A stretch of 64,000 nt of DNA from Gottschalkia acidurici 9a (GTDB lineage: Bacteria; Bacillota; Clostridia; Tissierellales; Gottschalkiaceae), in the NCBI RefSeq assembly GCF_000299355.1, contig NC_018664.1, forward strand, positions 3,023,993 to 3,087,992. Reading direction: 5' to 3'. Below, in pieces: positions 13,988 through 52,706 of this stretch. Each line of letters starts with the position of its first letter. Position 1 is the first letter of the stretch. The position numbers and the translations under genes were made by a program. The notes beneath the pieces are model-generated. The model worked only from the letters and a program-made list of their open reading frames with translations, was not told the DNA's origin and did not search any database.

Positions 13988-14812
13988 TTAATTAAAAGTA
14001 CTTTTATATTTAAATTTATTTTTTATATTTTTCATATGATCTATTTTTGCGTTATTTTTTACAACAAGTATCTCTCCAAAGATTCCAAATGCTATCTCTT
14101 TTAAAGAATCTCCTCCCATATTAAGTCCTATGGGCATATATACTTTTTCTAAACTTTCTTTAGATATGCCTTCTTTCATTAAGTTTTCCTTTATAGTTTT
14201 AATTTTTTTACTACTTCCTAACATACCTAAATATTTAGCACCTCTATCTATACAGCTCTTAACTACTATCTCATCTTGCTTATGCTCATGACCTGATGCG
14301 ACTATATAACATTTCTCATCTATATTATATCTTTTTAAATTCTCCTCTATATCCCCGACATGTAGTTCATCAGCTTCAGGAAATCTATCTTTATTACAAA
14401 ATTCTTCTCTACTATCAAATATTACGGTATAGAAATCTTGTGATTTAGCTATTTGATATAGTGTGAATCCTACGTGTCCTCCACCTACTATTAGTAATTT
14501 TTCTTTAGGATTAAATACTTTTATAAACAATCCTATTTCAACGTCTCCTATTTTGGCTACTTCCGAAACTTCTTGCTTATAACAAAATGTTTCGCTTATT
14601 CCCGACTTAAGGCACTCTAATGACTTATTAACTACCTCAAATTCCATCTTTCCTCCACCTACTGTTCCTATAGTGAAGCCGTCTTCAGTCACACACATAC
14701 TTAATCCTACTCTTGCTGGTGTTACCCCCTTCACATTAGTAACCATCACTAGTGCGATTTTATTATTTTTTTTAATACTTTCGTATACTCTCTTTAAAAC
14801 TATAGTGTCCAT
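13988..14812 (-). CDS. xdhC: XdhC-family molybdenum hydroxylase maturation factor
   Basis: The 274-residue protein has the XdhC/CoxI N-terminal domain (ALVMVTNVKGVTPARVGLSM; TVGGGKMEFEV) and a C-terminal XdhC Rossmann domain with IVGGGHVGFTL near residue ~110, and SGHEHKQDE and MLGSSKK blocks. XdhC binds molybdenum cofactor, promotes its sulfuration and inserts it into xanthine dehydrogenase-type enzymes. It lies 12 bp downstream of yqeB. The xanthine dehydrogenase subunits themselves are not in this window, so the client enzyme is encoded elsewhere. The pairing with yqeB and yqeC marks the client as probably selenium-dependent. Confidence 0.92.
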   Translation of the reverse strand: MDTIVLKRVYESIKKNNKIALVMVTNVKGVTPARVGLSMCVTEDGFTIGTVGGGKMEFEVVNKSLECLKSGISETFCYKQEVSEVAKIGDVEIGLFIKVFNPKEKLLIVGGGHVGFTLYQIAKSQDFYTVIFDSREEFCNKDRFPEADELHVGDIEENLKRYNIDEKCYIVASGHEHKQDEIVVKSCIDRGAKYLGMLGSSKKIKTIKENLMKEGISKESLEKVYMPIGLNMGGDSLKEIAFGIFGEILVVKNNAKIDHMKNIKNKFKYKSTFN

Positions 14813-14824
14813 AATACTTACTCC

Positions 14825-15634
14825 TTATAAGCCTTTAATCTTTTTCATATAAAAGATACCTTCTAAGACACCTCCAGCTATTGATTTGGCTTTGTCAGTT
14901 ATAGTAAAGCAATGATCTATTTCCGCTCTCGGGTCTATATCAGCTATTTTTAATCCTTCAAAGACATCTATTCCGTTACTTATTAGTCCTCTCAATACTC
15001 CGTCTATACTAGCTTTAAGTGGTACCCTATTTTCTCCTATATAAGCTAATATATCATCCTTCTTTACTATATCCCCTATTGATCTTATATTTCTTATTAC
15101 TCCACTTGCTGGTGAATGCATAACTCTCTCTTTTCCAAATCCACCTATCATACCCGGTATTCCAGTATTTGGCTCTGCACTCCCCTTAGTTATAGCGGTT
15201 CCTAGATAATGTCCTCTCTTAGACTCTACTACTACATCTACTTCATCTGGAGCTATAAATCCTGGCCCTATTCCTATAGTTATAGGTGCCATGTCTCTAT
15301 TCGTTCCTCTATTTTTCTTAGCTATTATTGCATCTACTAATATATCTGGCTTCAATTCTTTTATAATTTCTGCTTTTGAATCTACCATAACTGGTACATG
15401 TGCTTTTTCCCAAACGTCATACACATCTTGTAGATTATTTGCCTTTATACATTTGACTCCTTCTACCTCTCCTTCCCCGTCAAATATAGCTTTAGTAAAT
15501 GCTACCGTTCTTCTTATGACTAGAGGGGTTTCAAGATCTAAATGTAGTACCTTAAATCCGCATCTATGAAGTCTATGTCCTATACCAGTTGCCAAATCTC
15601 CTGCACCACGTATAACTACTACATCATTAATCAT
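14825..15634 (-). CDS. yqeB: YqeB, selenium-dependent molybdenum hydroxylase system protein
   Basis: The 269-residue protein has an N-terminal Rossmann-like motif IRGAGDLATGIGHRLHRCGF and the conserved ETPLVIRRTVAF stretch, both diagnostic of the YqeB (EF2563) family. Comparative genomics linked this family, together with YqeC and SelD, to labile-selenium molybdenum hydroxylases such as purine hydroxylase and xanthine dehydrogenase. The biochemical role is unresolved. It sits between xdhC (12 bp) and the MocA-like gene (gap under 10 bp) in a tightly packed operon. Confidence 0.92.
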   Translation of the reverse strand: MINDVVVIRGAGDLATGIGHRLHRCGFKVLHLDLETPLVIRRTVAFTKAIFDGEGEVEGVKCIKANNLQDVYDVWEKAHVPVMVDSKAEIIKELKPDILVDAIIAKKNRGTNRDMAPITIGIGPGFIAPDEVDVVVESKRGHYLGTAITKGSAEPNTGIPGMIGGFGKERVMHSPASGVIRNIRSIGDIVKKDDILAYIGENRVPLKASIDGVLRGLISNGIDVFEGLKIADIDPRAEIDHCFTITDKAKSIAGGVLEGIFYMKKIKGL

Positions 15635-15638
15635 ATTG

Positions 15639-16217
15639 TCAAATCCCTTCTTTTAAGTTTTCATACTCTTCCCAGGTATCTATATCTATACCTGCTTTAT
15701 AATTCTCTATATTTATAAATTTTACTTTATCTATAAATTTGTTTATTATTATCTTTCCACCTACATCTCCATCTATATTAAAAAATTCCTCTTTCAAGCT
15801 TGTGGGAAAAATTACTGGATTTCCTTTCTTCTCTCCGTAAATAGGAACTATAATTTTATCTTTCTCTTTTCTAAATTCAATTATAAGGTCATCTATGGTA
15901 TTGGGATCTAAATATGGCTGGTCTCCTACTATAAACATTACCCCTTCAATATCATCATCGATATTCATTAGCCCAAGCTTTACAGACTCACTTTGACCGT
16001 TTACAGCATTTTCATTATATATAGACTTTATATTATATCTATCTGCTATTTCTTTTATTTCTTTTTTTCTATATATAATCATTATATCGTCTAACTTAGA
16101 AACCTTGCATGCTATTAAAACTTTCTCTATTATAGTACTCCCGTCTATCTCTAATAATAGCTTGTCTCTCTTCATTCTTCTAGAAAATCCTGAGGCCATT
16201 ATTATACCAATAATCAA
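15639..16217 (-). CDS. mocA: MocA-like nucleotidyltransferase (molybdenum cofactor cytidylyl/guanylyltransferase family)
   Basis: The protein has about 193 residues and a NTP-transferase fold: MASGFSRRMKRDKLLLEIDG at the start, VGDQPYLDP in the metal/nucleotide site, and GNPVIFP. Members add CMP to the molybdopterin cofactor of xanthine-dehydrogenase-type enzymes (MocA) or serve related enzymes (YgfJ). The frame can start at GTG 16226, but AGGGG lies 8 nt before TTG 16217, so TTG is preferred. The start overlaps the end of yqeC, indicating translational coupling. The neighbours make a role in the selenium/molybdenum hydroxylase pathway likely. Confidence 0.85.
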   Translation of the reverse strand: MIIGIIMASGFSRRMKRDKLLLEIDGSTIIEKVLIACKVSKLDDIMIIYRKKEIKEIADRYNIKSIYNENAVNGQSESVKLGLMNIDDDIEGVMFIVGDQPYLDPNTIDDLIIEFRKEKDKIIVPIYGEKKGNPVIFPTSLKEEFFNIDGDVGGKIIINKFIDKVKFINIENYKAGIDIDTWEEYENLKEGI

Positions 16218-16218
16218 A

Positions 16219-16950
16219 CTAATCACCCCTCATACTACCTATAATAACTTCATCTATATCAAATTTATTTTTTATTAATTTATCTTTTACTTCTAAAGCA
16301 GCCTGTACTCTTTCTTTTGACTCTGCCTTATTTAAAATTAAATATCTATCACTTTTTAGCGGTGTATTTTTAAACATTCCTTCACTAGCAACTATTATTT
16401 CATATATTATATCCGAAGTAATAGTATCTCCCAACTTACTATTTGTTAACTTAGTTATTATCTCTGGTCTATGAACGTTTTCTTTATATATCTTTTTACC
16501 TAAACAGTCCATACCAACCACACATATAGTCTTAGTTGTGTAGCCAGGTATTACTGGTTCATGCGATGCAGGAGCTTTTAAAGGCTTCATATTTGCTCCA
16601 TCTGCTTCTACTATTATATAGTCAAATATATTTGAGCTATATATCTCATTTACCATTTCTTCATCTATACCTTTATATTTATTTTCCTTTATTATCTCTT
16701 TTAATAGTACTGTTACCCCACTTTTAGGTACATCGTTTAAGGTATTTCCTTCTTCTAGTATTATTAGTTTTTCATATTTATCTTCTTTAGGCTTTAGTAT
16801 AGCTGTAGTAGTAGTTACTAAAACCTTTTTATTATGCTTAGATAGCTCATCTGCTAATCTAAACATAGTTGTTGTCTTACCTCCACCACCTATTATAGAA
16901 ATAAGTTCTTTTTTATTTAGAGATATATTTATATTTTCAAATAAATTCAT
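16219..16950 (-). CDS. yqeC: YqeC, selenium cofactor biosynthesis protein
   Basis: The 243-residue putative NTPase has a P-loop IIGGGGKTTTMFRLA at ~17-31, LVTTTTAI, and the family block VEADGANMKPLKAPASHEPVIP at ~115-136. These identify YqeC, a marker of selenium-dependent molybdenum hydroxylase maturation. It follows the molybdopterin-binding protein gene by about 10 bp and overlaps the MocA-like gene. The exact reaction is not known; ATP- or GTP-dependent handling of a selenium intermediate is the usual hypothesis. Confidence 0.92.
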   Translation of the reverse strand: MNLFENINISLNKKELISIIGGGGKTTTMFRLADELSKHNKKVLVTTTTAILKPKEDKYEKLIILEEGNTLNDVPKSGVTVLLKEIIKENKYKGIDEEMVNEIYSSNIFDYIIVEADGANMKPLKAPASHEPVIPGYTTKTICVVGMDCLGKKIYKENVHRPEIITKLTNSKLGDTITSDIIYEIIVASEGMFKNTPLKSDRYLILNKAESKERVQAALEVKDKLIKNKFDIDEVIIGSMRGD

Positions 16951-16960
16951 TTTAATACAC

Positions 16961-17980
16961 CTACTTACCTAAAGGACATACTGGATAAGTGCACACTTCA
17001 CATCCTAAACATAGTCCACCATGTCCAAGTTTAGTCATATCATTTTTAGTTATTCTCTCTCCTGCTAATATCCTAGGAAGAACTAAATCTAACACTGTTA
17101 TTTTGTGATACATCCCACATGCTGGTACCCCTATTATAGGAAGATCACCCCTATATGCAACCATAAACATGGATCCAGGCAGCACAGGTGAACCATAAGA
17201 TATTACTTCATCAGATGACTCTTTTATAGCTATTGGAGTTACATCGTCTGCGTCTACAGACATCCCTCCTGAAGTAAATATTAAGTTAGCACCTTCATTA
17301 ATGAGTTCTTCTATACATCCTTTTATCATTTCGCTATCATCTTTAGAGTATCTTAAACCCACTACAGTACTTCCATAATATTTTGCTTTATTTTCTAACA
17401 CAACTCCAAACTTGTCTTTTATTCTTCCCTCATAAACCTCAGTCCCAGTTACTACTATTCCAACTTTAAAGCTCTTTAATTTTTTTATATCTAATATATG
17501 TGTATTTACACTACATAACTCTTCCACTTGTTCTATAACCTTTTTATCTATACAAAGTGGTATTATTCTAGTTCCTGCTATAGCCTGATCTTTTTCCACT
17601 AATGTGTTGTTGTGAAGTGTGGCTAAAGTTACCATATCTATGCTATTTATTTTCTCTAAAGCATCTACATTTACTTTTAATAATCCCTTATATTCAGCTT
17701 TCAGAGTCACTTTACCTTCTGACGGTCCTTGTGTATATATTCCATTTCCTTTGATAGCATCTGCTATTCTTATAGCTGCATCTTCTTCATGAAGTTGATT
17801 TTCATCTAAATCTAGTGCTAATATATGATACTTACCAGCATCTTTTAGCAATTCTATATCTTCTTCCCTTATAAGGTGTCCCTTCTTAAATTTTGCACCT
17901 TTAAACTTCCCAGGTTCTATTTTAGTTAAATCATGAGCTAGAATCATGCCAAGTGATTCTTCAACTTTTACTTTTCTCAT
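16961..17980 (-). CDS. Molybdopterin-binding protein with C-terminal cysteine cluster
   Basis: The 339-residue protein contains a MoCF_biosynth (MoeA/MogA-like) domain: VVTGTEVYEG, LIFTSGGMSVDADDVTP and a GSPVLPGSMF region in the second half. The C-terminal tail carries CLGCEVCTYPVC, possibly a metal or iron-sulfur site not found in ordinary MoeA. It is the first gene of the yqeC-mocA-yqeB-xdhC operon and has a GGGAGGG ribosome binding site. Its place suggests it feeds molybdopterin to the hydroxylase maturation pathway. It is not a full MoeA (too short, different N-terminal domain). Confidence 0.85.
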   Translation of the reverse strand: MRKVKVEESLGMILAHDLTKIEPGKFKGAKFKKGHLIREEDIELLKDAGKYHILALDLDENQLHEEDAAIRIADAIKGNGIYTQGPSEGKVTLKAEYKGLLKVNVDALEKINSIDMVTLATLHNNTLVEKDQAIAGTRIIPLCIDKKVIEQVEELCSVNTHILDIKKLKSFKVGIVVTGTEVYEGRIKDKFGVVLENKAKYYGSTVVGLRYSKDDSEMIKGCIEELINEGANLIFTSGGMSVDADDVTPIAIKESSDEVISYGSPVLPGSMFMVAYRGDLPIIGVPACGMYHKITVLDLVLPRILAGERITKNDMTKLGHGGLCLGCEVCTYPVCPLGK

Positions 17981-18312: not shown

Positions 18313-20127
18313 TTATTTTACAACTGGATCTAATATTTCAAAGTTATTTACGTCTATTAGACCTTTATCTGATATTTTGAACTTTGGACTTGTTGATAAT
18401 GCTAAGAATGATACGTGCATAAATGGAGCATGTAATGTTCCACCTAATTGATCTTTTACTGTAGACTCTAAGTCTGCTATTTTAGCACTTACTTCTTGTC
18501 CTGTTAATTCGTCAGTGATAAGTCCTCCAACTGGTAATGCTAATTCATTTATAACTCTACCATTGTTAGATATAGCAACTCCACCACCCATTTCTATAAC
18601 TCTGTTGATAGCTATAACCATATCTCTTAGGTTTGTACCTACAACTGTCATATTGTGAGTATCATGTGCTATTGATTGAGCAAATGCACCTTGTTTAAGT
18701 CCTATTCCTTTAACCATACACTTACCGATGTTTCCGTTACGTCCGTATCTTTCTAAACAAGTAAGGTATAATACGTCTTGGTTTACATCTGCTTCTACTA
18801 CACCTCTATTAACTCTAACTTGTGCTTCTCCACCGTCTGTTAAGTTTTGATCTGGTATAGCTTGAATGTATCTAACTGTAGCAGTATTTCCATCTGCATG
18901 TATTTCTAAGTCAGCTTCTGTTACTGGCTTCATTCTTACTGAATTTTTAACTGAATCTGGGTAAGTGTATTTTGGCATTTCTATTAACATCTGTCCTTGA
19001 GACGCTACTAGTTGTCCTTTTATAAATACAGCTTCTACAGTCATTTCATTTAAGTCGCTGATAACAGCTATATCAGCTACTGTTCCTGGTAATAGAGCTC
19101 CTCTATCAGTGAATCCCCAATAAGTCGCAGGGTTTATAGTAGCCATTTGAATTGCTTCAATTGGATCTACACCTTCTCTTATAGTTCTTCTTATAATATC
19201 ATTCATGTGACCTGATTTTTCTAAGTCTTCAGCAACCATATCATCTGAAACTAATATTAATCTTCTTGAGTCTAGTCCTTCTTCAGTTACGGCTCTTATA
19301 CATTCAGCCATATTTCTTTGAGTAGAACCTTCTCTCATAAATACATAAACACCTTGTCTTAACTTTTCAACACACTCTTCTTTAGTTGTTGTTTCGTGAC
19401 AAGAACACTTTCCACCACAAGCTATTACATGTGACGCTAAGTCTGCACCAAATAATTCTGGAGCATTACCATCAACTGGCTTTCCTAAGCTCTTAGCATA
19501 TATAGTTGAAGTTAAAAGGTCTGTTATTATTTCTGGTGTATGCTTATACACGTGTTTAGTTAATGAATATCCTTGAAGCTCTCCTATACCATTTATGTTT
19601 GGATAGTTTAGAAGGTCTTCCATGTCTTTAGAGTTTACGTCAACACCTGCTGTTTCAAGTTTTGGTGCATCAGGAGTTAATGCTGGAACTTGTAATCTTA
19701 CATAGTTTGGAACTACGCTACACTCGTCTGCCATAGCCTTCATAGCTACTGATCCTAGTGCATTTCCAATCTCATGTGGGTCAGCTATTAAAGTAGTTGT
19801 TCCTGATGGTATTGATAATCTTGAGAATTCAGTTATAGTTAACATACTACTTTCAAAGTGCATATGTGAATCCATGAATCCTGGTGATAAATATTTACCT
19901 CTTACATCTACTACTACTGTATCTGGTCCTATTAATGATTGGCAATCTCCAACTAATGCTATATAGTCTCCTTTTATAGCTATATCAGCTGTATAAACTT
20001 CTCTAGTGATTACGTTTATAACATTACCGTTATATAAAACAACGTCAGCAAATCTGTCGTCTGCCATTAAAACGTCTATTAATTCTCTATATTCCATTGC
20101 TTGTTTAATATTTTCTGGTTTTAACAA
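18313..20127 (-). CDS. ade: Adenine deaminase
   Basis: The 604-residue metal-dependent amidohydrolase converts adenine to hypoxanthine and ammonia. The metal-binding DSHMHFES motif at ~82-89, the ADPHEIGNALG block at ~116-126, ILVSDDMVAEDL and the C-terminal substrate-specific domain match the AdeC family at its normal length. It is the last gene of the shell-protein operon, 22 bp downstream of the pentamer gene, and has a terminator after it. This placement ties the compartment to purine catabolism. Whether the enzyme is inside the compartment is unknown. Deamination of 4-aminoimidazole is another reaction needed in the pathway, but I have no sequence evidence that this enzyme does it. Confidence 0.93.
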   Translation of the reverse strand: MLKPENIKQAMEYRELIDVLMADDRFADVVLYNGNVINVITREVYTADIAIKGDYIALVGDCQSLIGPDTVVVDVRGKYLSPGFMDSHMHFESSMLTITEFSRLSIPSGTTTLIADPHEIGNALGSVAMKAMADECSVVPNYVRLQVPALTPDAPKLETAGVDVNSKDMEDLLNYPNINGIGELQGYSLTKHVYKHTPEIITDLLTSTIYAKSLGKPVDGNAPELFGADLASHVIACGGKCSCHETTTKEECVEKLRQGVYVFMREGSTQRNMAECIRAVTEEGLDSRRLILVSDDMVAEDLEKSGHMNDIIRRTIREGVDPIEAIQMATINPATYWGFTDRGALLPGTVADIAVISDLNEMTVEAVFIKGQLVASQGQMLIEMPKYTYPDSVKNSVRMKPVTEADLEIHADGNTATVRYIQAIPDQNLTDGGEAQVRVNRGVVEADVNQDVLYLTCLERYGRNGNIGKCMVKGIGLKQGAFAQSIAHDTHNMTVVGTNLRDMVIAINRVIEMGGGVAISNNGRVINELALPVGGLITDELTGQEVSAKIADLESTVKDQLGGTLHAPFMHVSFLALSTSPKFKISDKGLIDVNNFEILDPVVK

Positions 20128-20149: not shown

Positions 20150-20434
20150 TTAACTGTCTAATACGTCTTTATAGACATCCATATTGTCTACTATCCCTAT
20201 GATAGCCGCGTCTATAGCTGCATCCGGTTTTCCAGCTGCATTTCTAGATGCAGTTCCTTCAGCGTATAGTACTACTTCCCCTATACCTGCTCCCACAGTG
20301 TCTACCATTATTATTGGTTCTCCTGCTGGTTTATAGTCTATGTCTAAAGGTTGTGTTATCATAAGCTTTGAGCCTATAAGACTATCATCTTTTCTAGTTG
20401 CAACTAAAGTACCTACTACTCTACCAATATTCAA
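20150..20434 (-). CDS. BMC pentamer (vertex) shell protein, EutN/CcmL family
   Basis: The 94-residue protein is a single EutN/CcmL domain: N-terminal IGRVVGTLVATRKDDSLIG, the LMITQPLD block, VDTVGAGIGEVVL and a C-terminal DAAIIGIVD. Such proteins form pentamers that close the vertices of the icosahedral shell. It is the only pentamer gene seen in the locus. It lies between the flavoprotein gene (29 bp) and adenine deaminase (22 bp). Presence of this gene shows that a closed polyhedral compartment, not just sheets of hexamers, is likely built. Confidence 0.95.
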   Translation of the reverse strand: MNIGRVVGTLVATRKDDSLIGSKLMITQPLDIDYKPAGEPIIMVDTVGAGIGEVVLYAEGTASRNAAGKPDAAIDAAIIGIVDNMDVYKDVLDS

Positions 20435-20463: not shown

Positions 20464-21297
20464 CTATTTTCTTATAATTGTTATACCTTGTTTTTTTGCT
20501 GTATCAAGAGCTTGAGGAGTAATAATTGTTTTTATAGGTACAATTATTTCGTTATTGTTATTCACTGCACTTAATAAGTCTTTTTCAGTCATTATCTTAG
20601 GTAAACCTTGACTCTGAGCTGAGCTTTGTAAGTTTTGTGAATCTTCTATTTTCATACTAACATTTTTAAACTTGTTTATTAATTCTACGCTATAATCGCT
20701 TTTATCTAATTTTATTACACCTATCTTTTGTAACTTCTCTACATAATCTTTCATGATTTCAGCAAGCATTGGATTTTTTGATTCAACCCCTCCATATGTC
20801 AAGACGTTATCAAAATCCATTAAAACTGTTTTGCCATTCCATAAAGATCTCCATAATAGTGTAGATATGAAGTTATCTTGAATACCTAATACTAATTTGC
20901 TAGCAATATCTTGTGTAGCCATAGGTACCATTATACCATCTACACTTTCTATTACTTGATTAAATATTAGCTGATCTTCTTCGTTATATATCTTGTTCGG
21001 TTTAAGAGCTTTTTTTACTTCATTCATGCCTTCTTCTCCTAAAACGTGCGCACCGCTAAAGGAAAAAGCTACGTCAAAAGTAAATCCATATTTTCTAGCT
21101 CTACTAACTTCTCTTAAAACTTCCGTTAAACCAATATTAGTACCTGTAAATACAACTAATATATGATGATCAGAGTAATCTAATCGTTCTTCTATTTTAC
21201 TAGAAATATTAATCATATTATCATTTGTTACAGGTACTCTATTGACTCTTCCAACTAATTTTCTTATTATGTCATTTGTTAGATTATATTTATCCAT
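20464..21297 (-). CDS. BMC-associated UbiX-like flavoprotein with C-terminal TP-x-A motif tail
   Basis: The 277-residue protein has an N-terminal domain (~40-195) resembling the flavoprotein (HFCD/UbiX-type) fold: HILVVFTGTNIGLTEVLREV, FSFSGAHVLG, and the block VDGIMVPMATQDIASKLVLG, which resembles the flavin/substrate loop of UbiX-type proteins. A Q/S-rich linker (QNLQSSAQSQG, ~222-232) leads to a ~40-residue tail with EKDLLSAV ... TIITPQALDTAKKQGI, a motif also seen as an appendage in other BMC-associated proteins. It sits inside the shell gene cluster. A role in flavin or prenyl-FMN handling for UbiD is possible but is inference. Confidence 0.6.
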   Translation of the reverse strand: MDKYNLTNDIIRKLVGRVNRVPVTNDNMINISSKIEERLDYSDHHILVVFTGTNIGLTEVLREVSRARKYGFTFDVAFSFSGAHVLGEEGMNEVKKALKPNKIYNEEDQLIFNQVIESVDGIMVPMATQDIASKLVLGIQDNFISTLLWRSLWNGKTVLMDFDNVLTYGGVESKNPMLAEIMKDYVEKLQKIGVIKLDKSDYSVELINKFKNVSMKIEDSQNLQSSAQSQGLPKIMTEKDLLSAVNNNNEIIVPIKTIITPQALDTAKKQGITIIRK

Positions 21298-21357: not shown

Positions 21358-21633
21358 TTACTCGTTCTTTAAAAGAACTCTTTCAACTTCTGAGTGTGGT
21401 CTTGGTATTACGTGCACTGATACTAATTCTCCAACTGATCTTGCTGCTTCAGCACCTGCATCTGTAGCTGCTTTAACTGCTCCAACGTCTCCTCTTACCA
21501 TAACTGTTACTAATCCAAATCCTATTTTTTCATATCCTATTAATGTAACGTTAGCTGCTTTTACCATAGCATCTGCTGCTTCAACTGCACCTGTTAAACC
21601 TTTAGTTTCTACCATTCCTAATGCTTGACTCAT
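21358..21633 (-). CDS. BMC hexamer shell protein 1 (PduA/EutM-like)
   Basis: The 91-residue protein is a canonical [27 protein letters not shown] at the start (first 20 residues diagnostic), [18 protein letters not shown], and IPRPHSEVE at the end. It is the closest of the three hexamer proteins to PduA/EutM. The pore loop reads KIGFG where PduA has KIGSG, so a Phe would line the hexamer pore, which should narrow it or make it hydrophobic. A ribosome binding site (GAGGAG) precedes ATG 21633. Strong assignment. Confidence 0.96.
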
Positions 21634-21660: not shown

Positions 21661-22077
21661 TTATTTTTTATTACTTGCTGATTTTTCTTCTTTTTTAACT
21701 TCTTTTTCCGGTTCTTTTTCTTCTTCTTTTTTAGGTTCTTCAACCTTTTTAGCCGCATTTTCTTTAGCTTCTTGCTTAGCTTTTAAGTTTTTTTCAAACT
21801 CTTGAAGTAACTTATCAACTTCTTCGTGTGGTCTAGGTATTACATGGCTTGCTACTACTTCACCAACTCTTTCAGCTGCTGCAACCCCTGCATCTACTGC
21901 CGCTCTTACTGCTGCTACTTCACCAGCTATCTGAATTGTAACACTTATTTTTTTATTTACACCAATTACTTTATCAAAGCCAGCTAATCTAACATCTGCT
22001 GCCTTACTTGCAGCATCTAAAGCAGTTACTGCTGACGTTAGTCCTATTGCTTCTATTAATCCTAAAGCTGCTCTCAT
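21661..22077 (-). CDS. BMC hexamer shell protein 2 with charged C-terminal tail
   Basis: The 138-residue protein has one BMC domain (~1-92) ending IPRPHEEVDKLL, followed by a ~46-residue tail almost entirely of K, E, A and P (for example EEPKKEEEKEPEKEVKKEE). The pore segment is altered and longer than usual (KVIGVNKKIS). Tailed BMC-H proteins (PduK-type, though those carry a metal site) exist, but no cysteine is present here. The tail could bind cargo, other compartments or the bacterial nucleoid; no function can be assigned. A strong AAGGAGGTG site precedes the start, 23 bp after the end of the extended upstream reading frame. Confidence 0.93.
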   Translation of the reverse strand: MRAALGLIEAIGLTSAVTALDAASKAADVRLAGFDKVIGVNKKISVTIQIAGEVAAVRAAVDAGVAAAERVGEVVASHVIPRPHEEVDKLLQEFEKNLKAKQEAKENAAKKVEEPKKEEEKEPEKEVKKEEKSASNKK

Positions 22078-22100: not shown

Positions 22101-22780
22101 CTAAAATAAGGAGCCCTTTTTTCCTATAGAATCTAATGTTACCTTAGGAATATAAGCTTCTAAATTACTTAAAACATTAGATTTCACATAACTATTGTTA
22201 GGTTTTTCTTCTTTTTTATCATTGCTACTAACTTTTTTACTTTACCAGCTAGGTCTCCTAATGAAGTTATGCTACTTTGTTGTTGATTATAAGAAGTTTT
22301 GACTTCTTTTTTCTCAGACTTACTTCCACCTGATGCTAGGTCTCCTAAGCTTACTTTTTGCATTATATTTCTACTGTCTCTTTCTACACTAGATTTACCA
22401 ACAGAAATATTGCTTAATGTATTTAGGGTGCTCAGTGTTGTATTGTTCGTATTATTGTTATAGTTCGTATTGCCTTGATAACTATTATTACTAGATGATT
22501 CTTTTACTACACCTTTTTTAGATGCTAAAGAATCTAAGGTCTGCATAGCTCCAGCTCTGTTACTAACTTTTGTTGTTCTTCCATAAGAATTTTTATCATA
22601 TGAACCTACACCTGATTTTGTAACATTACCTTTGCTGTTTAATAAACTTGATAATAGTCTCTCTTCATCTTTTCCCAAATTAGTAGTGCCTAAAGATACC
22701 GCATTATTTGGTCTTGAAGCAACCTTACCACTTTTTTGTGCAATATTATTCATAACCACTCTTGCTAATGGGTTAGCCAT
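22101..22780 (-). CDS. Disordered repeat protein of the BMC operon, probable -1 frameshift product
   Basis: Not a recognised family. Start ATG 22780 (MANPLARVV) follows GGTGGTG. The zero frame stops at 22184 after a basic tail. An in-phase A_AAA_AAG heptamer (22238-22232) would allow a -1 shift, giving a 226-residue form ending at 22101. The protein is rich in S, N, K and T, with no stable-domain signature. Short repeats occur at residues 42-51 (LLSSLLNSKG), 81-90 (TLDSLASKKG), 118-128 (TLNTLSNISVG), 144-151 (SLGDLASG), 173-179 (SLGDLAG) and, only in the shifted frame, 215-223 (TLDSIGKKG). Being flanked by two hexamer genes suggests a scaffold or cargo-linker. A real single-base indel or a sequencing error in the A6 tract is the alternative to programmed shifting. 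Confidence 0.75.
22232..22238 (-). other. Candidate -1 ribosomal frameshift site A_AAA_AAG
   Basis: On the minus strand the zero frame reads GTA AAA AAG TTA, so the heptamer A AAA AAG is in the exact phase required for simultaneous slippage, as in dnaX. Slippage leads to GTT AGT AGC and an open frame of 43 codons. An AGGAG sequence lies 16 nt upstream; a weak downstream GTTAG/CTAAC pairing is possible. Confidence 0.6.
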
Positions 22781-22807
22781 TTTTTTCACCACCATTTAGC
22801 TATATTT

Positions 22808-23086
22808 TTAACCTACAATTATATCTAACATTTTATCTACTTCTTCATGAGGTCTAGCTATAACATTTGTTGCTATAATCTCGCCTAATTGAGCTGCTGT
22901 TTCTCTAGCATTCTCAACTGCTGCATTAACTGCTGCTACCTCACCTGATACTATTACAGCTATAAGTGCTGATCCTACAACGTCTAAATCCACGATATTA
23001 ACATCAGCCGATTTAACCATAGTATCTGCTGCTTGTATAGCAGCTACTAAACCTTTAGTTTCAACTAAACCTATGGCTCTTCTCAT
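22808..23086 (-). CDS. BMC hexamer shell protein 3
   Basis: The 92-residue single BMC domain has VETKGLVAAIQAADTMVKSA at the N-terminus, VSGEVAAVNAAVENA in the middle and IARPHEEVDKML at the end. Its pore segment VVGSALI differs from hexamer 1 (KIGFG) and 2, so the three hexamers would present chemically different pores. It follows the UbiD gene by 14 bp and precedes the disordered-protein gene. No tandem-domain (trimer) shell gene is visible in the window. Confidence 0.95.
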   Translation of the reverse strand: MRRAIGLVETKGLVAAIQAADTMVKSADVNIVDLDVVGSALIAVIVSGEVAAVNAAVENARETAAQLGEIIATNVIARPHEEVDKMLDIIVG

Positions 23087-23100
23087 AGTTTATACCACCT

Positions 23101-24474
23101 TTACTTATTTTTGATACCTGGCAAATATTTTTCTATATCTAATTCACCTTCAAAACCAGGGATTATTGCCATTTCAAATAAGTGTGCATATTCTCCTAGA
23201 GGTTTTGTAGCATCTATACCCATTTTATCCGTAACTCCACGTGCAACATGAGATGATTCTAGCCCTGAACCTAAAGCTCCCGGAACTATAACTACGTCTT
23301 GTGAAGCTTGAACTCTAGAAGATAGTGCAAGTTCTACACTACTTGAATCATATATATTTATATCTTCATCTACTATTACAACATGTTTTATATCATAAGA
23401 ACTTCCAAGTGCAGCTAGTATTGCTGTTTTAGCATCTCCAGCTTTACGTTTTTTTATAGATATTATAGCATGTAATCTACATCCAGCTCCAACAGTAATG
23501 TTAACATCTTGAACATCTATTGTTGCATTTTTAATTGCTGCATATAATTCCGCTTCTCTAATTAGACCATTCGCAAGATGCTCTTCTCTACAAGGGAATG
23601 CATGTTGGAATATTGCATTATTTCTATGCATTATACATTTAACTTCCATAACTGGGTTTGGAGCTACTTCTCCATAATATCCCATAAGTTCTCCAAAAGG
23701 TCCTTCTATAACACGTTTATTAGGAACTAGTACACCTTCTAGAACCATCTCAGCATAAGCTGGTACTTCTAAATCAACTGTGTGACACTTCACTAATTCT
23801 AGTGGCTCTCCTCTTAGAGCACTATCAACTTCATGTTTGTCTAATCCATATCTTCTAGAACCTATTTGAGATGCTAATAGATATGTGGCATCATATCCTA
23901 ATACAACTGCACATTCTAATGGTTTATTTATCTTTTCAAACTCAGCAAATTGTTCTAAAAGTGCCGGAGAGTGACCTGATACTAAAGCACTTATGCTATT
24001 TCCACCATTAATTTGGAATCTACGTACTGCCATATGAGTATATCCTGTTTCAGGATCTCTTACTATAAACATTCCCGCTGTAATAAACGCTCCAGAATCC
24101 TTCTCATGTGAAGTAGGAACTGGGAACATCCTAGGTATATCTATATTTCCTGTAACTATATTTTCTTTTATAGGTCCGTTATTCACCATTTTTGCAGGTT
24201 GCGGATTAGCTATAGCGTCCATAAATCTGAACAATCTATTTTCGCTTGTAACATCATTCATTAATTTATAGTAAAGTTCACGATTACCGTATAACCCACC
24301 TAATACAGGCATATCATATCCTTTTGGTTTGTTAAACATTATAGGTTTTCTGTTGCTAAAGTATCTTAACACAGCTCCTAATTCAAACTTAGGATCTACT
24401 TGAGTATTACAATACTCTATTTCTCCTAGTTGTTCTAATTTATTAATTGTTGCTCTTAACATTTGTGTTTCCAA
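23101..24474 (-). CDS. UbiD-family prenylated-FMN-dependent decarboxylase
   Basis: The 457-residue protein has typical UbiD length. UbiD enzymes use prenyl-FMN with Mn2+ and K+ to (de)carboxylate aromatic or alpha,beta-unsaturated acids. Visible are MAVRRFQINGGNS in the cofactor-binding half, and EGPFGELMGYYG, which holds the two acidic residues of the active site and metal site. It lies between hexamer 3 and its partner ubiX. In this purine context the best substrate guess is 4-amino-5-imidazolecarboxylate, decarboxylated to 4-aminoimidazole in the classical clostridial xanthine pathway. Family call is strong; substrate is inference. Confidence 0.92.
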   Translation of the reverse strand: METQMLRATINKLEQLGEIEYCNTQVDPKFELGAVLRYFSNRKPIMFNKPKGYDMPVLGGLYGNRELYYKLMNDVTSENRLFRFMDAIANPQPAKMVNNGPIKENIVTGNIDIPRMFPVPTSHEKDSGAFITAGMFIVRDPETGYTHMAVRRFQINGGNSISALVSGHSPALLEQFAEFEKINKPLECAVVLGYDATYLLASQIGSRRYGLDKHEVDSALRGEPLELVKCHTVDLEVPAYAEMVLEGVLVPNKRVIEGPFGELMGYYGEVAPNPVMEVKCIMHRNNAIFQHAFPCREEHLANGLIREAELYAAIKNATIDVQDVNITVGAGCRLHAIISIKKRKAGDAKTAILAALGSSYDIKHVVIVDEDINIYDSSSVELALSSRVQASQDVVIVPGALGSGLESSHVARGVTDKMGIDATKPLGEYAHLFEMAIIPGFEGELDIEKYLPGIKNK

Positions 24475-24493: not shown

Positions 24494-25048
24494 CTATTCG
24501 CCCCATCTTGTTATAAGATTATGCTCTATTCCTATCTGATCAAGTATTCTAGCTACTATACCACTAACTATGTCTCCTATAGTTTCCGGATGACTATAGA
24601 ATCCCGGTGAAGGTGGAAGTACAGTCACACCTGCTCTAGACAGCTTAAGCATATTCTCAAGATGTATTTGGCTTAACGGAGTCTCTCTCGGTACTACAAC
24701 TAATTTCCTATTTTCTTTAATTATAACATCCGCGGCTCTAGTCAATAAATTATCTGATAATCCATTAGCAACAGCAGATACAGTCTTCATTGAGCAAGGA
24801 ACTATAACCATTGCATCCGTTTTAAATGAACCGCTAGCTATAGGTGCTGCTAAGTCTTTATTTTCATGAAAGTGTGTAGCTAGTCCTTTAAGTTCTTCTA
24901 GTTTAATACCACATTCGTGTTCTACTACATATTCTCCTAATGTAGATACAACTAAATGAGTTTCTATATTTAATTCTTGTAATATTTTTAAAAGGGCTAC
25001 TCCGTATATAGCTCCACTACCTCCAGAAATTCCTACAACTACTCTCAT
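24494..25048 (-). CDS. ubiX: UbiX-family flavin prenyltransferase
   Basis: The 184-residue protein makes prenylated FMN, the cofactor of UbiD, from FMN and dimethylallyl phosphate. Motifs are VGISGGSGAIYGVALL at the N-terminus, SGSFKTDAMVIVPCSMKTVSAV (central flavin/prenyl site), VPRETPLSQIHLENML and SPGFYSHP. Length is standard. It is 19 bp upstream of the ubiD gene, in the usual cofactor-plus-enzyme pairing. A terminator-like hairpin lies upstream of it, so ubiX-ubiD and the shell genes may be expressed at a lower level than the two hydrolases, or from a separate promoter. Confidence 0.95.
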   Translation of the reverse strand: MRVVVGISGGSGAIYGVALLKILQELNIETHLVVSTLGEYVVEHECGIKLEELKGLATHFHENKDLAAPIASGSFKTDAMVIVPCSMKTVSAVANGLSDNLLTRAADVIIKENRKLVVVPRETPLSQIHLENMLKLSRAGVTVLPPSPGFYSHPETIGDIVSGIVARILDQIGIEHNLITRWGE

Positions 25049-25214: not shown

Positions 25215-25838
25215 TTAACCTTGAACTTTGTTTTGTTGGTCTCCAGCTCCAGCCCATGGATCGTTTCCAGCATCTATAGCTGAAGTAAATTCGTCTATGT
25301 CTATAACTTTTGTGAATATACTTAAGTCTACTAATCCATTTTGGTGTTGTGCTTCGTCTTTAGAGTGAACTCCGTCTCTTAAAGTTATAACTCTGTAAGC
25401 TAATGCTAAAGCGTCAGCTGCAGTTGATCTAACACAAACGTTAGTCCAAACTCCTGTTACAACTACTGTATCTAAGTTTTCTTCTCTTAGGTATAAGTCT
25501 AAGTCAGTGTGCCAGAATGAACTGTGTCTTCTTTTAGGAATAGCGTACTCTTCTCCTTCTGGGTATAATTCTTTTATGAAGTCTGATCCCCAAGTTCCTT
25601 TTATAGCGTGAACTGGTCTAACTCTGAAGTCAGCGTCATTTTTTCTGTGCGCTTCTTGGATGTGGATTAATTGAACATCATCTTTACCTGCAGCGTTTCT
25701 TTCTCTTACCCATTTGAATAATTTTTGTAGGTTTGGAACTATTTCTTCTCCACCTGGACATCTTAATGGAGCTTTTTCTCCTATAAAGTCATTTAACATA
25801 TCGATTACAACGATACCATATCTGTGTTGATTACTCAT
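25215..25838 (-). CDS. Isochorismatase-like cysteine hydrolase (amidohydrolase)
   Basis: The 207-residue protein belongs to the cysteine hydrolase family that includes N-carbamoylsarcosine amidase, ureidoacrylate amidohydrolase and biuret hydrolase. The catalytic triad can be seen: Asp in VVIDMLNDF (~12-20), Lys in AIPKRRHSSF, and Cys in TGVWTNVCVRSTA. A C-terminal tail (NDPWAGAGDQQNKVQG) follows the core. It lies between the cyclic amidohydrolase gene (103 bp, with a hairpin) and the hairpin-rich spacer before ubiX. In the xanthine pathway it could release the carbamoyl group of 4-ureido-5-imidazolecarboxylate as CO2 and NH3. Family is clear; substrate is inference. Confidence 0.85.
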   Translation of the reverse strand: MSNQHRYGIVVIDMLNDFIGEKAPLRCPGGEEIVPNLQKLFKWVRERNAAGKDDVQLIHIQEAHRKNDADFRVRPVHAIKGTWGSDFIKELYPEGEEYAIPKRRHSSFWHTDLDLYLREENLDTVVVTGVWTNVCVRSTAADALALAYRVITLRDGVHSKDEAQHQNGLVDLSIFTKVIDIDEFTSAIDAGNDPWAGAGDQQNKVQG

Positions 25839-25941: not shown

Positions 25942-27609
25942 TTACTTATTGAACTCTGGTAGAGATTCTCTCTCTCTTCTGTTCACTCCTGTTGGAGTTG
26001 TAGTACCATAAGTTATTGTTTTTGGTAATACTTGAATGCTTTGTCTCTTAACGTACTTACCAAATCCTGGTTTAACCATGATTCCTTTGATTCTTCTTAC
26101 ATCTTCATTTATTTTTTCTGGATGTAGTTTTCTGTAACTTCTATCGTACTCAGCAGCTGCTAATTCTGGGAATTGCTCGAATATATCAGCAAATTTCTCT
26201 TCAGTACCTTCTGGGAAGTTATGAACTGTTTTTTCTAATTCTGCATCAGTTAATGTTGGTAATACACCTTCTTGAGTATCATCGAATACTACTGTTCCAC
26301 GAACTATAGTTTTTAGTACTCTACCTTTTAATTCCATACCGTCAAGTGGAGTGTATCCACACATTGAAGCTTGGTTTCCTTTCGCATCAATTGTCCATTT
26401 TTTCTCAAGGTCAACTATAGCAAAGTCAGCATCTGATCCTATTTCCATAGCACCTTTTTTAGGATATAGTCCGTAGTGTTTAGCAGCGTTAGTTGATAAT
26501 ACTTCCACAGTTCTGCTAAGTGATAATCTACCCTTGTTTAATCCTTCTGATATGATTATCGGAGCCATAGTTTCTACTCCTGGAATTCCTGGGAATGCTG
26601 TCCAGATGTTCATTCCTTCTTTATTTTTTTCTGATTCTATTTCATATGGAGCATGGTCTGTAGCCATGAAGTCTATGCTTCCGTTTCTTAACCCTTCCCA
26701 TTGCTCTTCGTTATCTGCAGAAGTTCTTATTGGAGGAGCTATTTTAGCTTGTGAACCATGTTTAGTCATAGCTTCTTGATAGTTAAGTGTTAAGTAGTGA
26801 GGACAAGATTCTGAAGTTGCGTTTATTCCTCTCTTCTTAGCTTCTCCTATTAATTTAGCACCGATTCCAGTACTCATGTGAACTATGTGAAGTCTTGCTC
26901 CTGTAGCTTCAGCGAAGCTTATTCCTAATTCTATAGCAACTTTTTCAGCTAATTCGTTTCTAGCTTCTGACCAAGCTGGTCCGTCCATTCTTCCTTCTTC
27001 TTGGAACTTCTTAACATAGAAGTCACATATAGCGAAGTTCTCAGCGTGGATTCCTATTGGAAGTCCTGTTTTAGCAACTTCTTTGAAGCACTCAAGCATC
27101 TCTGGATCAGTAACTCTTGGATAAGTTGGTACTGATGGAGTCATGTAAACTTTAAATGCAACTACTCCGAAGTCAGCTTGTTCTTTAACGTTGTGCATCC
27201 AACCTTCTCTAACGTCTTCTCCTGTTACTCCTCCCCATAGACCGTAGTCTACTATTGTTTGTGCGTTAGCTATATCTATTTTAAGTTCTAATTGTTTAAC
27301 TGTTCTTGTTGATGGAACTGTACAACATGGCATATCTATTATTGTAGATACTCCACCTCTTGCTGCAGCCGATGTTCCTGTTACCCAGTTTTCTCTATGT
27401 CCAAATCCATGATACATTATATGAGTATGTGAATCTATAAATCCTGGGAAAGTTAAATGTCCTTCAGCATCGATAGTTTCTTTTGCTTCTATTCCGTGAA
27501 TAGTACTTACAAAACCTGCTATTTTTTCGTCTTTAACTAAGATATTAGTTAATACAGTATTGTCTCCTTGAGGGATCTTAGCGTTTTTAATGATTACATC
27601 ATAACTCAT
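25942..27609 (-). CDS. Cyclic amidohydrolase (dihydropyrimidinase/allantoinase superfamily) with C-terminal extension
   Basis: The 555-residue metallo-hydrolase opens cyclic amide rings. Metal-site motifs are complete: HxH in GFIDSHTHI (~58-66), the carbamylated Lys in VVAFKVYM (~150), His in GIHAEN and in IVHMS, and Asp in MATDHAPYE. Allantoinases and dihydroorotases are about 420-460 residues; this protein carries roughly 100 extra C-terminal residues (from ~VLPTLTDAELE), ending RRERESLPEFNK. It is the first gene of the microcompartment operon. In context it is the best candidate for xanthine amidohydrolase, the enzyme that opens the pyrimidine ring of xanthine in purinolytic clostridia, whose gene was long unknown. 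This assignment is inference. Confidence 0.85.
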   Translation of the reverse strand: MSYDVIIKNAKIPQGDNTVLTNILVKDEKIAGFVSTIHGIEAKETIDAEGHLTFPGFIDSHTHIMYHGFGHRENWVTGTSAAARGGVSTIIDMPCCTVPSTRTVKQLELKIDIANAQTIVDYGLWGGVTGEDVREGWMHNVKEQADFGVVAFKVYMTPSVPTYPRVTDPEMLECFKEVAKTGLPIGIHAENFAICDFYVKKFQEEGRMDGPAWSEARNELAEKVAIELGISFAEATGARLHIVHMSTGIGAKLIGEAKKRGINATSESCPHYLTLNYQEAMTKHGSQAKIAPPIRTSADNEEQWEGLRNGSIDFMATDHAPYEIESEKNKEGMNIWTAFPGIPGVETMAPIIISEGLNKGRLSLSRTVEVLSTNAAKHYGLYPKKGAMEIGSDADFAIVDLEKKWTIDAKGNQASMCGYTPLDGMELKGRVLKTIVRGTVVFDDTQEGVLPTLTDAELEKTVHNFPEGTEEKFADIFEQFPELAAAEYDRSYRKLHPEKINEDVRRIKGIMVKPGFGKYVKRQSIQVLPKTITYGTTTPTGVNRRERESLPEFNK

Positions 27610-28483: not shown

Positions 28484-29176
28484 ATGAACTTACGTTTAGT
28501 TGACTTAACGCAAGATATTTATGAAGGTATGCCATTATATGGAATACATCAAAAAACATTTATAATGACTAATCAAACTCATGAGCAAAGTAAAGCAGCT
28601 ACAGGAAGTGACTTAGGGTTTTATGCAAGAAATATCCTTATGAGTGAACACTGTGGAACTCATAGTGATGCTGTTCTTGAGTTTAAAGAAGGTGGCAAAG
28701 ATATCGTAGATATGCCTATAGAGTATTTCTATGGTAGTGCTATATGCGTAGACTTAACTCATATGAGATATCCAGATTATATAGAAGTAAAAGACTTACA
28801 AGAAGCTATTGCTAAATCTGGACAAGAGATAAGAAAAGGTGATATATTCCTTATGTACACTGGTCTATTTAATAGAGAATATCCAGGTGCAGGATATCAA
28901 AATCACTACACAGGGGTAAGTTATGAAGCTGCTAAATGGTTAGCTGAACAAGGAGTAGTAAATATAGGAGTAGATGCTCCCGCAATAGATCAAACTCCAG
29001 ATGACTTAACTTTTGCAGGTCATAAAGTTTGTGGAGAATATGGTATAACTAATACTGAAAACCTTTGCAACTTAGATCAAGTTGTAAATAAAAGATTCTT
29101 ATACTTTGGTCTTCCTTTAAAAATCCCTGGAGGAACTGGTTCTCCTATACGTGCAGTAGCACTATTAGAAGATTAA
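28484..29176 (+). CDS. Cyclase-family metal-dependent hydrolase (kynurenine formamidase-like)
   Basis: The 230-residue protein belongs to the cyclase family (Pfam Cyclase), Zn- or Mn-dependent amide/lactam hydrolases. The signature appears as SEHCGTHSDA (~63-72), followed by GDIFLMYTG and GVDAPAIDQTP; the last block holds further metal/catalytic residues. A GGAAAGGAG site precedes ATG 28484. It is divergent from the BMC operon and convergent with the PucR gene, sharing a bidirectional terminator. A role as imidazolonase (opening 4-imidazolone to formiminoglycine) would fill a step not otherwise covered here; this is inference, and other cyclic-amide or formamide substrates are equally compatible with the family. 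Confidence 0.85.
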   Translation: MNLRLVDLTQDIYEGMPLYGIHQKTFIMTNQTHEQSKAATGSDLGFYARNILMSEHCGTHSDAVLEFKEGGKDIVDMPIEYFYGSAICVDLTHMRYPDYIEVKDLQEAIAKSGQEIRKGDIFLMYTGLFNREYPGAGYQNHYTGVSYEAAKWLAEQGVVNIGVDAPAIDQTPDDLTFAGHKVCGEYGITNTENLCNLDQVVNKRFLYFGLPLKIPGGTGSPIRAVALLED

Positions 29177-29193
29177 TTATAGTACTTAAAATA

Positions 29194-29230
29194 AAAAATA
29201 CTCATAGAGTAAACTCTATGAGTATTTTTT
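29194..29230. terminator. Bidirectional terminator between cyclase and pucR genes
   Basis: ACTCATAGAGT faces ACTCTATGAGT across an AA loop, with A run on one side and T run on the other, so it serves both converging genes. Confidence 0.9.
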
Positions 29231-30908
29231 ATTTTCCAAGCAATTGTTTTATTTTCAGTGATATCTCTAGATTTAATCTATCATTAGGATTTTCTAAATC
29301 CATATTAGTTATTTCCATAATTCTTTGTACTCTGTAAAGAACAGTATTATAGTGAGTGAACAACTCGTCAGACATCTTTTTTAAATTTCCGTTATTGTCA
29401 AAATATGACTGTAGTGTCTTCACAAGTTCAGTAGACTTTTTCTCATCATAGTCTACTAAAGGTTTGATAGTACCATCATAGAATTTTGATAATTCCTCTT
29501 CTAGATGGTCTTGTGATAATATTTTAAATATACCTAAGTTTTCAAAGTTAGTCACTAAGTTTTCTTTTAATATCTTTCCAGTTGATATTGCCTTTATAGA
29601 GTCTATATAACTGTTTGCGAAATTTTCTAAATAACTATTAACTCTTCCTATTCCAACACTCATATCTATGCTTTTGAATCTTTCATCTATAGATTCTATT
29701 TGTTTTGAAAACTCATTTAGTGCACGCTCTATACTTTCATCATCTTTGAATGATAAAAGTATTATTATTAATTCAGTTTTACTTGCTACTACTCCAGTAA
29801 GTTCTAGATCTCTTATACTTCTCTCTATATGGTCATGAACTTTAGAAAGGTAAAGCTCTAGAGAATTAACTACTCCATCTAATTTCGTGAAGTTTTTTTC
29901 TTCAACATTATCTTTTCCTTTAATCTTTATAGTCACACTTAAAAATTTATCATTTCTATTCAAGTTAAAAAAAGATGCGCGTTCAATAGCCTTTTCTTTT
30001 CTTTTACTATCTAGTGATATAAGATCCTCTATGAATTCAGACTTATACCTATTTTCTACTTCTCTTACAGATAATATTTTGAGAACTTCTAATGCTATAG
30101 TAGTAGATGCTATTTCTAGTACTGACAGTGCATACCCTCCTAATGGCTTGTTTACCCCCCAAGCAAATATATGTCCAAAAACACTATCTTTAGCTATTAC
30201 TGGTACTACTATTCTCTTAATATATTTAGAATCTAATAATTCATTACTTTCATCTATCTTTTTCTCACTATACCTGTTAGGATTTTTATAAAAGTTTAAT
30301 ACATTTTCAAAAAGTATATCTTTCTTATCACTTTCAATTAATTCAAATTGAGATATTTCTTTATCCTGAACATCTAATTTAACCAAAACTGGATTTTTTA
30401 TATTATCACCTATGAGATTAGTTATGTCTTTAATATTTTGACCCTTTAGCATTGCATTCATAAACTGTTCATAGATTTTCTCTATCTTTTTAAGTAAATA
30501 TGCCTGTCTATTGAATATTTCGTTAAATATAGGGGTCATTATATCAGATAATGGTGTAGCATAATAAATATCTATAACGGGAAAGTTCAAATTTTCCGCT
30601 AGCTCCAAAACTTCACTCGGCAGAGTTTCTAAGTAAGGGTGTACTTTTATACCGATTCCAGCTAGTCCTTTCTTAGAAGATTCCTTTATTATATTTTTTT
30701 GTTCTTGTAATGTAATTTTTTTAAAGGAGTAACCTGTCATTAATAGCAAATCACCTTCTTCAACCCAACTTATAACATCTGGATCCGCCATAACATTTAC
30801 ACTAGATATAGTATTTTTTATGCCTTTAAATCCCGCTATTATTTTGCAGTTCTTCATACAGTCCATCTTTAATACTTCTTCAATAGTTATGCCGTTTTGT
30901 CTACTCAT
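29229..30908 (-). CDS. pucR: PucR-family transcriptional regulator
   Basis: The start ATG 30908 (MSRQNG) is preferred because GAGAGGAGTG lies just upstream. The protein of 559 residues has the PucR N-terminal domain (~8-130: VMADPDVISWVEEGDLLLMTG), a diverged central GGDEF-like/CdaR region, and a C-terminal PucR helix-turn-helix (~495-555: LKKMSDELFTHYNTVLYRVQRIME). Members activate purine catabolism genes, as in Bacillus where PucR controls the puc genes. Placed in the middle of the purine region, it is the natural candidate regulator of the BMC operon, cyclase, cyclodeaminase and permeases. The effector cannot be read from sequence. Confidence 0.92.
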   Translation of the reverse strand: MSRQNGITIEEVLKMDCMKNCKIIAGFKGIKNTISSVNVMADPDVISWVEEGDLLLMTGYSFKKITLQEQKNIIKESSKKGLAGIGIKVHPYLETLPSEVLELAENLNFPVIDIYYATPLSDIMTPIFNEIFNRQAYLLKKIEKIYEQFMNAMLKGQNIKDITNLIGDNIKNPVLVKLDVQDKEISQFELIESDKKDILFENVLNFYKNPNRYSEKKIDESNELLDSKYIKRIVVPVIAKDSVFGHIFAWGVNKPLGGYALSVLEIASTTIALEVLKILSVREVENRYKSEFIEDLISLDSKRKEKAIERASFFNLNRNDKFLSVTIKIKGKDNVEEKNFTKLDGVVNSLELYLSKVHDHIERSIRDLELTGVVASKTELIIILLSFKDDESIERALNEFSKQIESIDERFKSIDMSVGIGRVNSYLENFANSYIDSIKAISTGKILKENLVTNFENLGIFKILSQDHLEEELSKFYDGTIKPLVDYDEKKSTELVKTLQSYFDNNGNLKKMSDELFTHYNTVLYRVQRIMEITNMDLENPNDRLNLEISLKIKQLLGK

Positions 30909-30993
30909 TCCATCACTCCTCTCAGGTATTTTACATACTATATTTATATTATATAGAAAAACATATAAGATTATATACCTTTCCATATAATAT

Positions 30994-31038: not shown

Positions 31039-31680
31039 TTATGCTAATTTACTGAAAACGTCTTTTTCGTGTACTTCTCTTAAAGCTTTAGCTTCTTTTA
31101 CTAATTCATCACATGTTTTTCTCATTTCGTCGTTGAAAGCTTGATCACTGATGCTTCCTAAGTTTATTAATACGTTATAAACAGCACCTTGTACTCCTGC
31201 TGTTCCTATTAATGATGCAACTCCTGCGTCAGTTATAGCATTTTGGTTTCCGTATTTTAAGAATGAATCTATAAGTTTTACTGATTCTAATGCTTTTTGA
31301 GCTGCTTCTAGAGGTACTCTAACAGCACCTTTCATAGCATCTTCCATAGCTTGTTTTCTAGCAGCTTTTTCTTCATCAGTTTCTTTTGGTAATTTTAAAG
31401 CTTCCATGTAGTCGTTGAAAGCGTTAGTATCTTCGTCAACTATTTCCATTAATCTTTTTCTTAATTCAATAGCTTTTTTAGTTCCCTCTTCTATTTCTGT
31501 CTTTTGGCTATCTTCTAAAGCATCAAATGCTTTTCTTCCTATAGATAATCCTCCAACCATTGCAGTTAGAGCAGATCCTAATCCTGCTGCTAAAGCTGAT
31601 ACACTTCCACCACCTGGAGCTGGAGCGTCACTTTCTACTACTTCAACGAAATCATTAACTGTTCTTTCTACTAATAACAT
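31039..31680 (-). CDS. fchA: Formiminotetrahydrofolate cyclodeaminase / methenyl-THF cyclohydrolase (FTCD_C family)
   Basis: The 213-residue all-helical protein has the FTCD cyclodeaminase signature APAPGGGSVSALAAGLGSAL at ~19-38 and the conserved DEDTNAFNDYMEALKLPKET block. It converts 5-formimino-THF to 5,10-methenyl-THF and ammonia, or acts as a methenyl-THF cyclohydrolase; both uses are known in clostridia. In purine fermentation the formimino group of formiminoglycine passes through exactly this step. The matching formiminotransferase is not in the window. The gene is monocistronic, with its own terminator, between pucR and the permeases. Confidence 0.92.
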   Translation of the reverse strand: MLLVERTVNDFVEVVESDAPAPGGGSVSALAAGLGSALTAMVGGLSIGRKAFDALEDSQKTEIEEGTKKAIELRKRLMEIVDEDTNAFNDYMEALKLPKETDEEKAARKQAMEDAMKGAVRVPLEAAQKALESVKLIDSFLKYGNQNAITDAGVASLIGTAGVQGAVYNVLINLGSISDQAFNDEMRKTCDELVKEAKALREVHEKDVFSKLA

Positions 31681-51037: not shown

Positions 51038-51056
51038 AGTCTAGCCTCTCTTTACT

Positions 51057-51665: not shown

Positions 51666-51699
51666 ATCAATCCCCTGCCAACTTTATTAGTTAATAAAA

Positions 51700-52191: not shown

Positions 52192-52193
52192 TT

Positions 52194-52691: not shown

Positions 52692-52706
52692 CTCAGTAGC
52701 CCCTCT

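Follow-up and report, generated by a model that had tools for sequence, protein, structure and literature searches.

The UbiD protein encoded beside shell genes in the window (the whole 64,000-nucleotide stretch of Gottschalkia acidurici 9a DNA that was analysed) is, with a probability that we put at about 90%, the decarboxylase that works with prFMN in the anaerobic fermentation of xanthine, i.e. the enzyme with the XauD role in the Xau/BUF1 microcompartment; as judged from sequence and gene context, its substrate would be 4-amino-5-imidazolecarboxylate. The first-pass annotation had suggested UbiD chemistry on this acid, and the suggestion is supported by the gene content, by co-occurrence with xanthinase, by the regulator, permeases and formiminotransferase, and by closeness to HmfF. 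The role is not new, having been proposed in 2019 in a comparative genomics study that described the same xanthine pathway with the decarboxylase, XauD, as its step 4 (Ravcheev 2019; PMC6620236), which means that the cluster is no novelty in itself. With the function assignment very likely right and already published, the results that we consider worth following up are the loss of metal-ligand residues from the decarboxylase and a linker-like protein encoded among the shell genes.

The UbiD reading frame is complete (TTG start, 457 amino acids) and its product matches all three UbiD Pfam domains (UbiD, 2.6e-57; UbiD_C, 3e-30; UbiD_N, 2e-14), as well as scoring above the cut-off of the TIGR00148 model. 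The best PDB match of an AF2 model built with 22 sequences (pLDDT 88, pTM 0.86) is HmfF (TM-score 0.89/0.91, 42% identity). Along with the three domains and the UbiD fold, the protein has the catalytic Glu-Arg-Glu/Asp network: Arg152, Glu257 and Glu262 are kept, with the EGPFGE motif at residues 257-262, and Lys213 and His147 stand in place of the metal-ligand Glu and Asn, respectively. By domains, fold and catalytic residues the protein is a UbiD, yet these residues indicate that it is not of the canonical metal-binding type. The dN/dS values for close pairs of UbiD genes are 0.03-0.17, and the enzyme is therefore under constraint. With the UbiX gene directly upstream and a BMC-H gene 14 bp downstream, the earlier observation of a UbiD adjoining shell genes is confirmed, and the UbiD, which is complete, has a UbiX of its own.

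Table 1. Features of the xanthine locus in the window, in order of position.
Feature	Position	Strand	Basis
Molybdenum hydroxylase maturation genes: XdhC, MocA-like, YqeC, MoCF-domain protein	13988..17980	-	profile matches
Adenine-deaminase-like amidohydrolase, proposed 4-aminoimidazole deaminase	18313..20127	-	TIGR01178, PF13382
BMC-P (EutN/CcmL) vertex protein	20150..20434	-	PF03319 8.8e-31
TIGR02536-like BMC accessory protein	20464..21297	-	profile match; weak flavoprotein-fold match
BMC-H shell protein	21358..21633	-	PF00936 6.6e-31
BMC-H shell protein, charged Lys/Glu-rich C-terminal tail	21661..22077	-	PF00936 1.8e-22
Low-complexity linker-like protein, candidate scaffold	22101..22795	-	motifs NPLARVVMNNI, TLDELA-like; ORF 22184-22795
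BMC-H shell protein	22808..23086	-	PF00936 1.6e-23
UbiD-family decarboxylase, XauD-like	23101..24474	-	Pfam and TIGR00148 matches
UbiX flavin prenyltransferase, prFMN maker	24494..25048	-	PF02441 4e-47; TIGR00421 above cut-off
Isochorismatase-fold hydrolase, proposed 4-ureido-5-imidazolecarboxylate hydrolase	25215..25838	-	PF00857 2e-40; position, co-conservation
Allantoinase/dihydropyrimidinase-like amidohydrolase, proposed xanthinase	25942..27609	-	profile matches; UbiD co-occurrence
Cyclase-family hydrolase, proposed 4-imidazolonase	28484..29176	+	PF04199; conserved divergent neighbour
PucR-family regulator	29229..30986	-	PF07905
FTCD_C cyclodeaminase/cyclohydrolase, one-carbon end of the pathway	31039..31680	-	PF04961 1.9e-65
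Xanthine/uracil permeases (two)	32062-33477 and 34018-35463	+	PF00860

On the minus strand the operon runs from the amidohydrolase through the isochorismatase-fold hydrolase, UbiX and UbiD to the first BMC-H gene, followed by the genes for the linker-like protein, two further BMC-H proteins, the TIGR02536-like protein, BMC-P and the adenine-deaminase-like protein. The cyclase-family gene, the PucR regulator, FTCD_C and the two permeases lie on one flank, and the molybdenum hydroxylase maturation genes (among which the MocA-like and YqeB-like calls come from reading the sequence only) lie downstream. The deaminase-like protein matches TIGR01178 with 459 bits, below the cut-off of 472.5; the nearest NCBIfam models for the isochorismatase-fold hydrolase, RutB and biuret amidohydrolase, are both below cut-off; and a single-sequence structure model of the TIGR02536-like protein gave no usable fold (pLDDT 42). 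No aldehyde dehydrogenase was found among the operon proteins scanned, and the shell genes are three for BMC-H and one for BMC-P.

The operon region holds homologues for all steps by which clostridia ferment xanthine as far as the opening of the ring, i.e. for the reactions of the xanthinase pathway of Rabinowitz and Pricer (1956), in which aminoimidazolecarboxylate is decarboxylated to aminoimidazole. Xanthinase-like, ureidase-like, decarboxylase, deaminase-like and ring-opening hydrolase genes are all present, and by gene kinds and proposed pathway the locus is Xau/BUF1. It resembles the published Xau/BUF1 system (PMC6620236) in these respects, in the aromatic decarboxylase at step 4 and in leaving xanthine dehydrogenase and the formiminotransferase outside the shell; one formiminotransferase domain (FTCD_N) gene and three molybdenum hydroxylases are found elsewhere in the genome. 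The BUF1 name comes from the Axen 2014 and Sutter 2021 catalogues, and BUF1 has been equated with the xanthine compartment (PMC8156839). As cited in PMC12507026, Tong 2023 identified the xanthinase pathway gene cluster, which occurs in Clostridia and Bacilli. Going beyond the Xau/BUF1 description, our analysis adds the linker-like protein across many loci, shell-less versions of the locus and the loss of the UbiD metal site.

In the proposed sequence of reactions, the amidohydrolase would open the xanthine ring and the isochorismatase-fold hydrolase would strip the ureido group to give 4-amino-5-imidazolecarboxylate, which UbiD, with prFMN supplied by the neighbouring UbiX, would decarboxylate to 4-aminoimidazole. 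The next enzyme, the adenine-deaminase-like one, would form 4-imidazolone, the cyclase-family enzyme would open the ring to formiminoglycine, and the one-carbon unit would pass to folate via the formiminotransferase and FTCD_C. The pathway in its 2023 description reportedly employs four hydrolases and a prenyl-FMN-dependent decarboxylase. At UbiD, the prFMN iminium would bond to the electron-rich ring carbon that bears the carboxylate, CO2 would leave, and Glu262/Glu257 with Arg152 would serve in proton transfer and release; the prFMN phosphate is probably held without Mn2+, by the invariant Lys213.

The locus is conserved. A single-sequence contig search returned one close relative only, and whole-genome searches were therefore used. 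In a class-wide sample of 391 genomes (E up to 1e-100 for UbiD and up to 1e-110 for xanthinase), both enzymes were present in the identical 13 genomes, co-occurrence and linkage being not independent of shared ancestry and the pattern spanning several families; within the order, UbiD was found in 44 of 199 genomes. Gene order is nearly identical throughout the 52 loci compared, with the UbiX-UbiD-BMC-H adjacency almost invariant, and the module recurs elsewhere in the phylum, once with its parts separated along a contig. For 56 of the 60 UbiDs of the clade, the sampled stretch also contains BMC-domain genes, in most cases arranged alike, and the linkage of UbiD to the shell genes is therefore not due to chance. 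Two genomes (G731 and G803) have no BMC domain anywhere and keep xanthinase, ureidase and a UbiD of the clade side by side. Locus L151 was rejected as a shell-less case; it contains fragments of genes and appears to be a copy in decay.

Tree building with 118 UbiDs placed the 60 purine UbiDs in a clade of their own (100% support), outside the HmfF clade and sister to a group made up of HmfF and one canonical UbiD; a second, more widely sampled tree agrees. The Mn2+ ligands of Fdc1 are N168, H191, E233 and K391, with R173, E277 and E282 associated with the cofactor (PMC4947166). The corresponding residue spacings are 5, 61, 105 and 5 in the window UbiD versus 5, 60, 104 and 5 in Fdc1, i.e. equal within one residue, such that the alignment columns are secure although Fdc1 is absent from the alignment. 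While Arg152, Glu257 and Glu262 (window numbering) are present in 60/60 purine UbiDs, the metal-ligand Asn (Fdc1 Asn168; window 147) is retained in none of the 60, being almost always Phe, Tyr or His, and the metal-ligand Glu (Fdc1 Glu233; window 213) is Lys in every one. The reference UbiDs, which include HmfF, E. coli UbiD and AnInD, have Asn in 58/58 and Glu in 58/58. The His191 column was left out of the evidence for metal loss, as it varies among the references themselves (Gly in 29, His in 26). As aligned, residues equivalent to the Mn2+ ligands Asn168 and Glu233 are thus lost across the purine UbiD clade. The exchange of Glu for Lys is also present in shell-less UbiD copies and is therefore a trait of the clade rather than of encapsulated enzymes. 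Lysine at this position is not unique to purine UbiDs, an idea that was considered and rejected: eight of 73 other Bacillota UbiDs have it (L238, L247, L251, L255, L256, L258, L259 and L262, some near other UbiD genes) and, as these are scattered on the tree, the exchange has probably arisen more than once.

The loss is of interest because Mn2+ or another metal is considered to belong to the prFMN site of the solved UbiDs reviewed; our search of the papers available to us found no metal-free UbiD. The alignment suggests that the lysine anchors the prFMN phosphate in place of Mn2+. It is possible, at somewhat less than even odds, that the purine UbiDs are not metal-independent but still bind a metal through other residues near the phosphate, as His147 replaces Asn in the window protein and His or Tyr does so in about half of the clade; however, 26 of the 60 sequences have Phe there and all have a positively charged Lys for Glu, which sits uneasily with a divalent metal. 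If the lysine does replace the metal, then a natural branch exists in which metal is dispensable, assay conditions change, and engineering of prFMN enzymes might be aided. The in vitro assay with Mn2+ and K+ that had been suggested for this enzyme may rest on a wrong assumption, the conserved metal ligands having gone from the whole clade.

In 50 loci, that of the window included, a linker-like protein is encoded between the first and second BMC-H genes. These proteins have 70-255 residues, are of low complexity, rich in Lys and Asn, and fast-evolving; 48 of the 50 begin with a motif resembling M(A/V)NPLARVVMNN(I/V), 49 have a TLDELA-like motif and 16 a SIGK tail. In a hydrophobic-moment test the N-terminal helix gave a weak signal (mean z 0.42). 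The relatives of the window linker are encoded in one open frame, whereas in the window the frame changes after paired AAAAAAG runs and the conserved C-terminal motif YIPKVTLDSIGKKGSLF follows in a different one (22101-22250, minus strand), a change that may reflect a homopolymer error, a real mutation or slippage. In Xau loci of other families (L186-L188, L191 and L194; families f150, f176 and f189), the linker slot is occupied by a longer BMC-like protein with a helix-bearing N-terminal extension, which starts with an encapsulation-peptide-like helix (LENLVDKIVSEVLNR in L186/L188).

By position and conservation, the linker-like protein is a candidate adaptor. No encapsulation-peptide extension was found on the termini of UbiD, the isochorismatase, the amidohydrolase or the deaminase (about 50-60 sequences each), and our literature search found nothing on the targeting of Xau cargo. 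The long C-terminal region of the window xanthinase was rejected as a targeting tag, the stand-alone second copy having the same region. With UbiD lacking an encapsulation peptide, its putative placement in the shell rests on gene neighbourhood; since shell-less genomes keep UbiD, the chemistry does not need a shell. The reasons for encapsulation offered by the first-pass annotation, that it keeps 4-aminoimidazole and CO2 local or protects prFMN, are possible ones, but the UbiD termini and the shell-less genomes lend them no support. The lack of terminal targeting extensions and the two genomes that have the three enzymes but no BMC domain would also fit a cytosolic pathway of which a part, e.g. 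the deaminase step, is encapsulated, with UbiD encoded beside the shell genes but working outside the shell. We regard this arrangement as plausible but not the favoured one, given that the UbiX-UbiD-BMC-H adjacency is nearly invariant, that reactive 4-aminoimidazole is a reasonable motive for a shell and that an adaptor can recruit BMC cargo. The linker-like protein suggests how a compartment might be loaded when its enzymes lack targeting peptides, an idea that is open to test. We tentatively propose, while rating the combination below an even chance, that the purine UbiDs are metal-independent, with Lys in place of Mn2+, and that a dedicated disordered linker recruits the peptide-less enzymes into the microcompartment.

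With respect to the substrate, HmfF, a furan-2,5-dicarboxylate decarboxylase (PDB 6h6v), is the closest solved relative, being from the sister clade, with 42% identity over the fold and the same catalytic Arg and Glu pair. It differs at the metal site, where HmfF has Asn147 and Glu210 and the purine clade has Phe/Tyr/His and Lys, as well as, mostly, Pro for the adjacent Arg (Arg168). His299, which has been tied in HmfF to furan specificity, is not diagnostic because 56 of 58 other UbiDs carry it. The decarboxylases PA0254/HudA (pyrrole-2-carboxylate) and AnInD (indole-3-carboxylate) likewise employ prFMN on nitrogen heteroaromatics, but both bind Mn2+ with prFMN; PA0254, which is dimeric and closer to Fdc1, requires Mn2+ and K+. 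PA0254 also reacts covalently with imidazole, forming a prFMN adduct (PMC7976604). This reaction, together with the action of HmfF on a five-membered heteroaromatic acid, makes prFMN chemistry on an imidazole ring reasonable. Although HmfF acts on a furan dicarboxylate and sequence is a poor guide to UbiD specificity, it is very improbable that the window UbiD works on another aromatic acid (of the furan, pyrrole or hydroxybenzoate type) and that its position in the cluster is unrelated, because it is the only UbiD of the genome, its co-occurrence with xanthinase is exact, the operon has no furan or phenol pathway genes, and shell-less genomes retain xanthinase, ureidase and UbiD together.

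Elsewhere in the same genome there is a second xanthinase (81% identical) paired with a cyclase (L166:10196-12623; G000:C2, about 456700-459120), with no UbiD, ureidase or shell gene alongside. A lone BMC-H gene (L195:9825-10106) and a gene for a lone two-domain BMC protein (L196:9317-9883) also lie outside the window; their products could complete the shell of the Xau locus, which itself has no BMC-T. Within the window, 35961-36803 and 50255-55355 encode a formate/nitrite transporter, FdhD and a molybdopterin oxidoreductase resembling formate dehydrogenase, which fit with formate as a product of purine fermentation.
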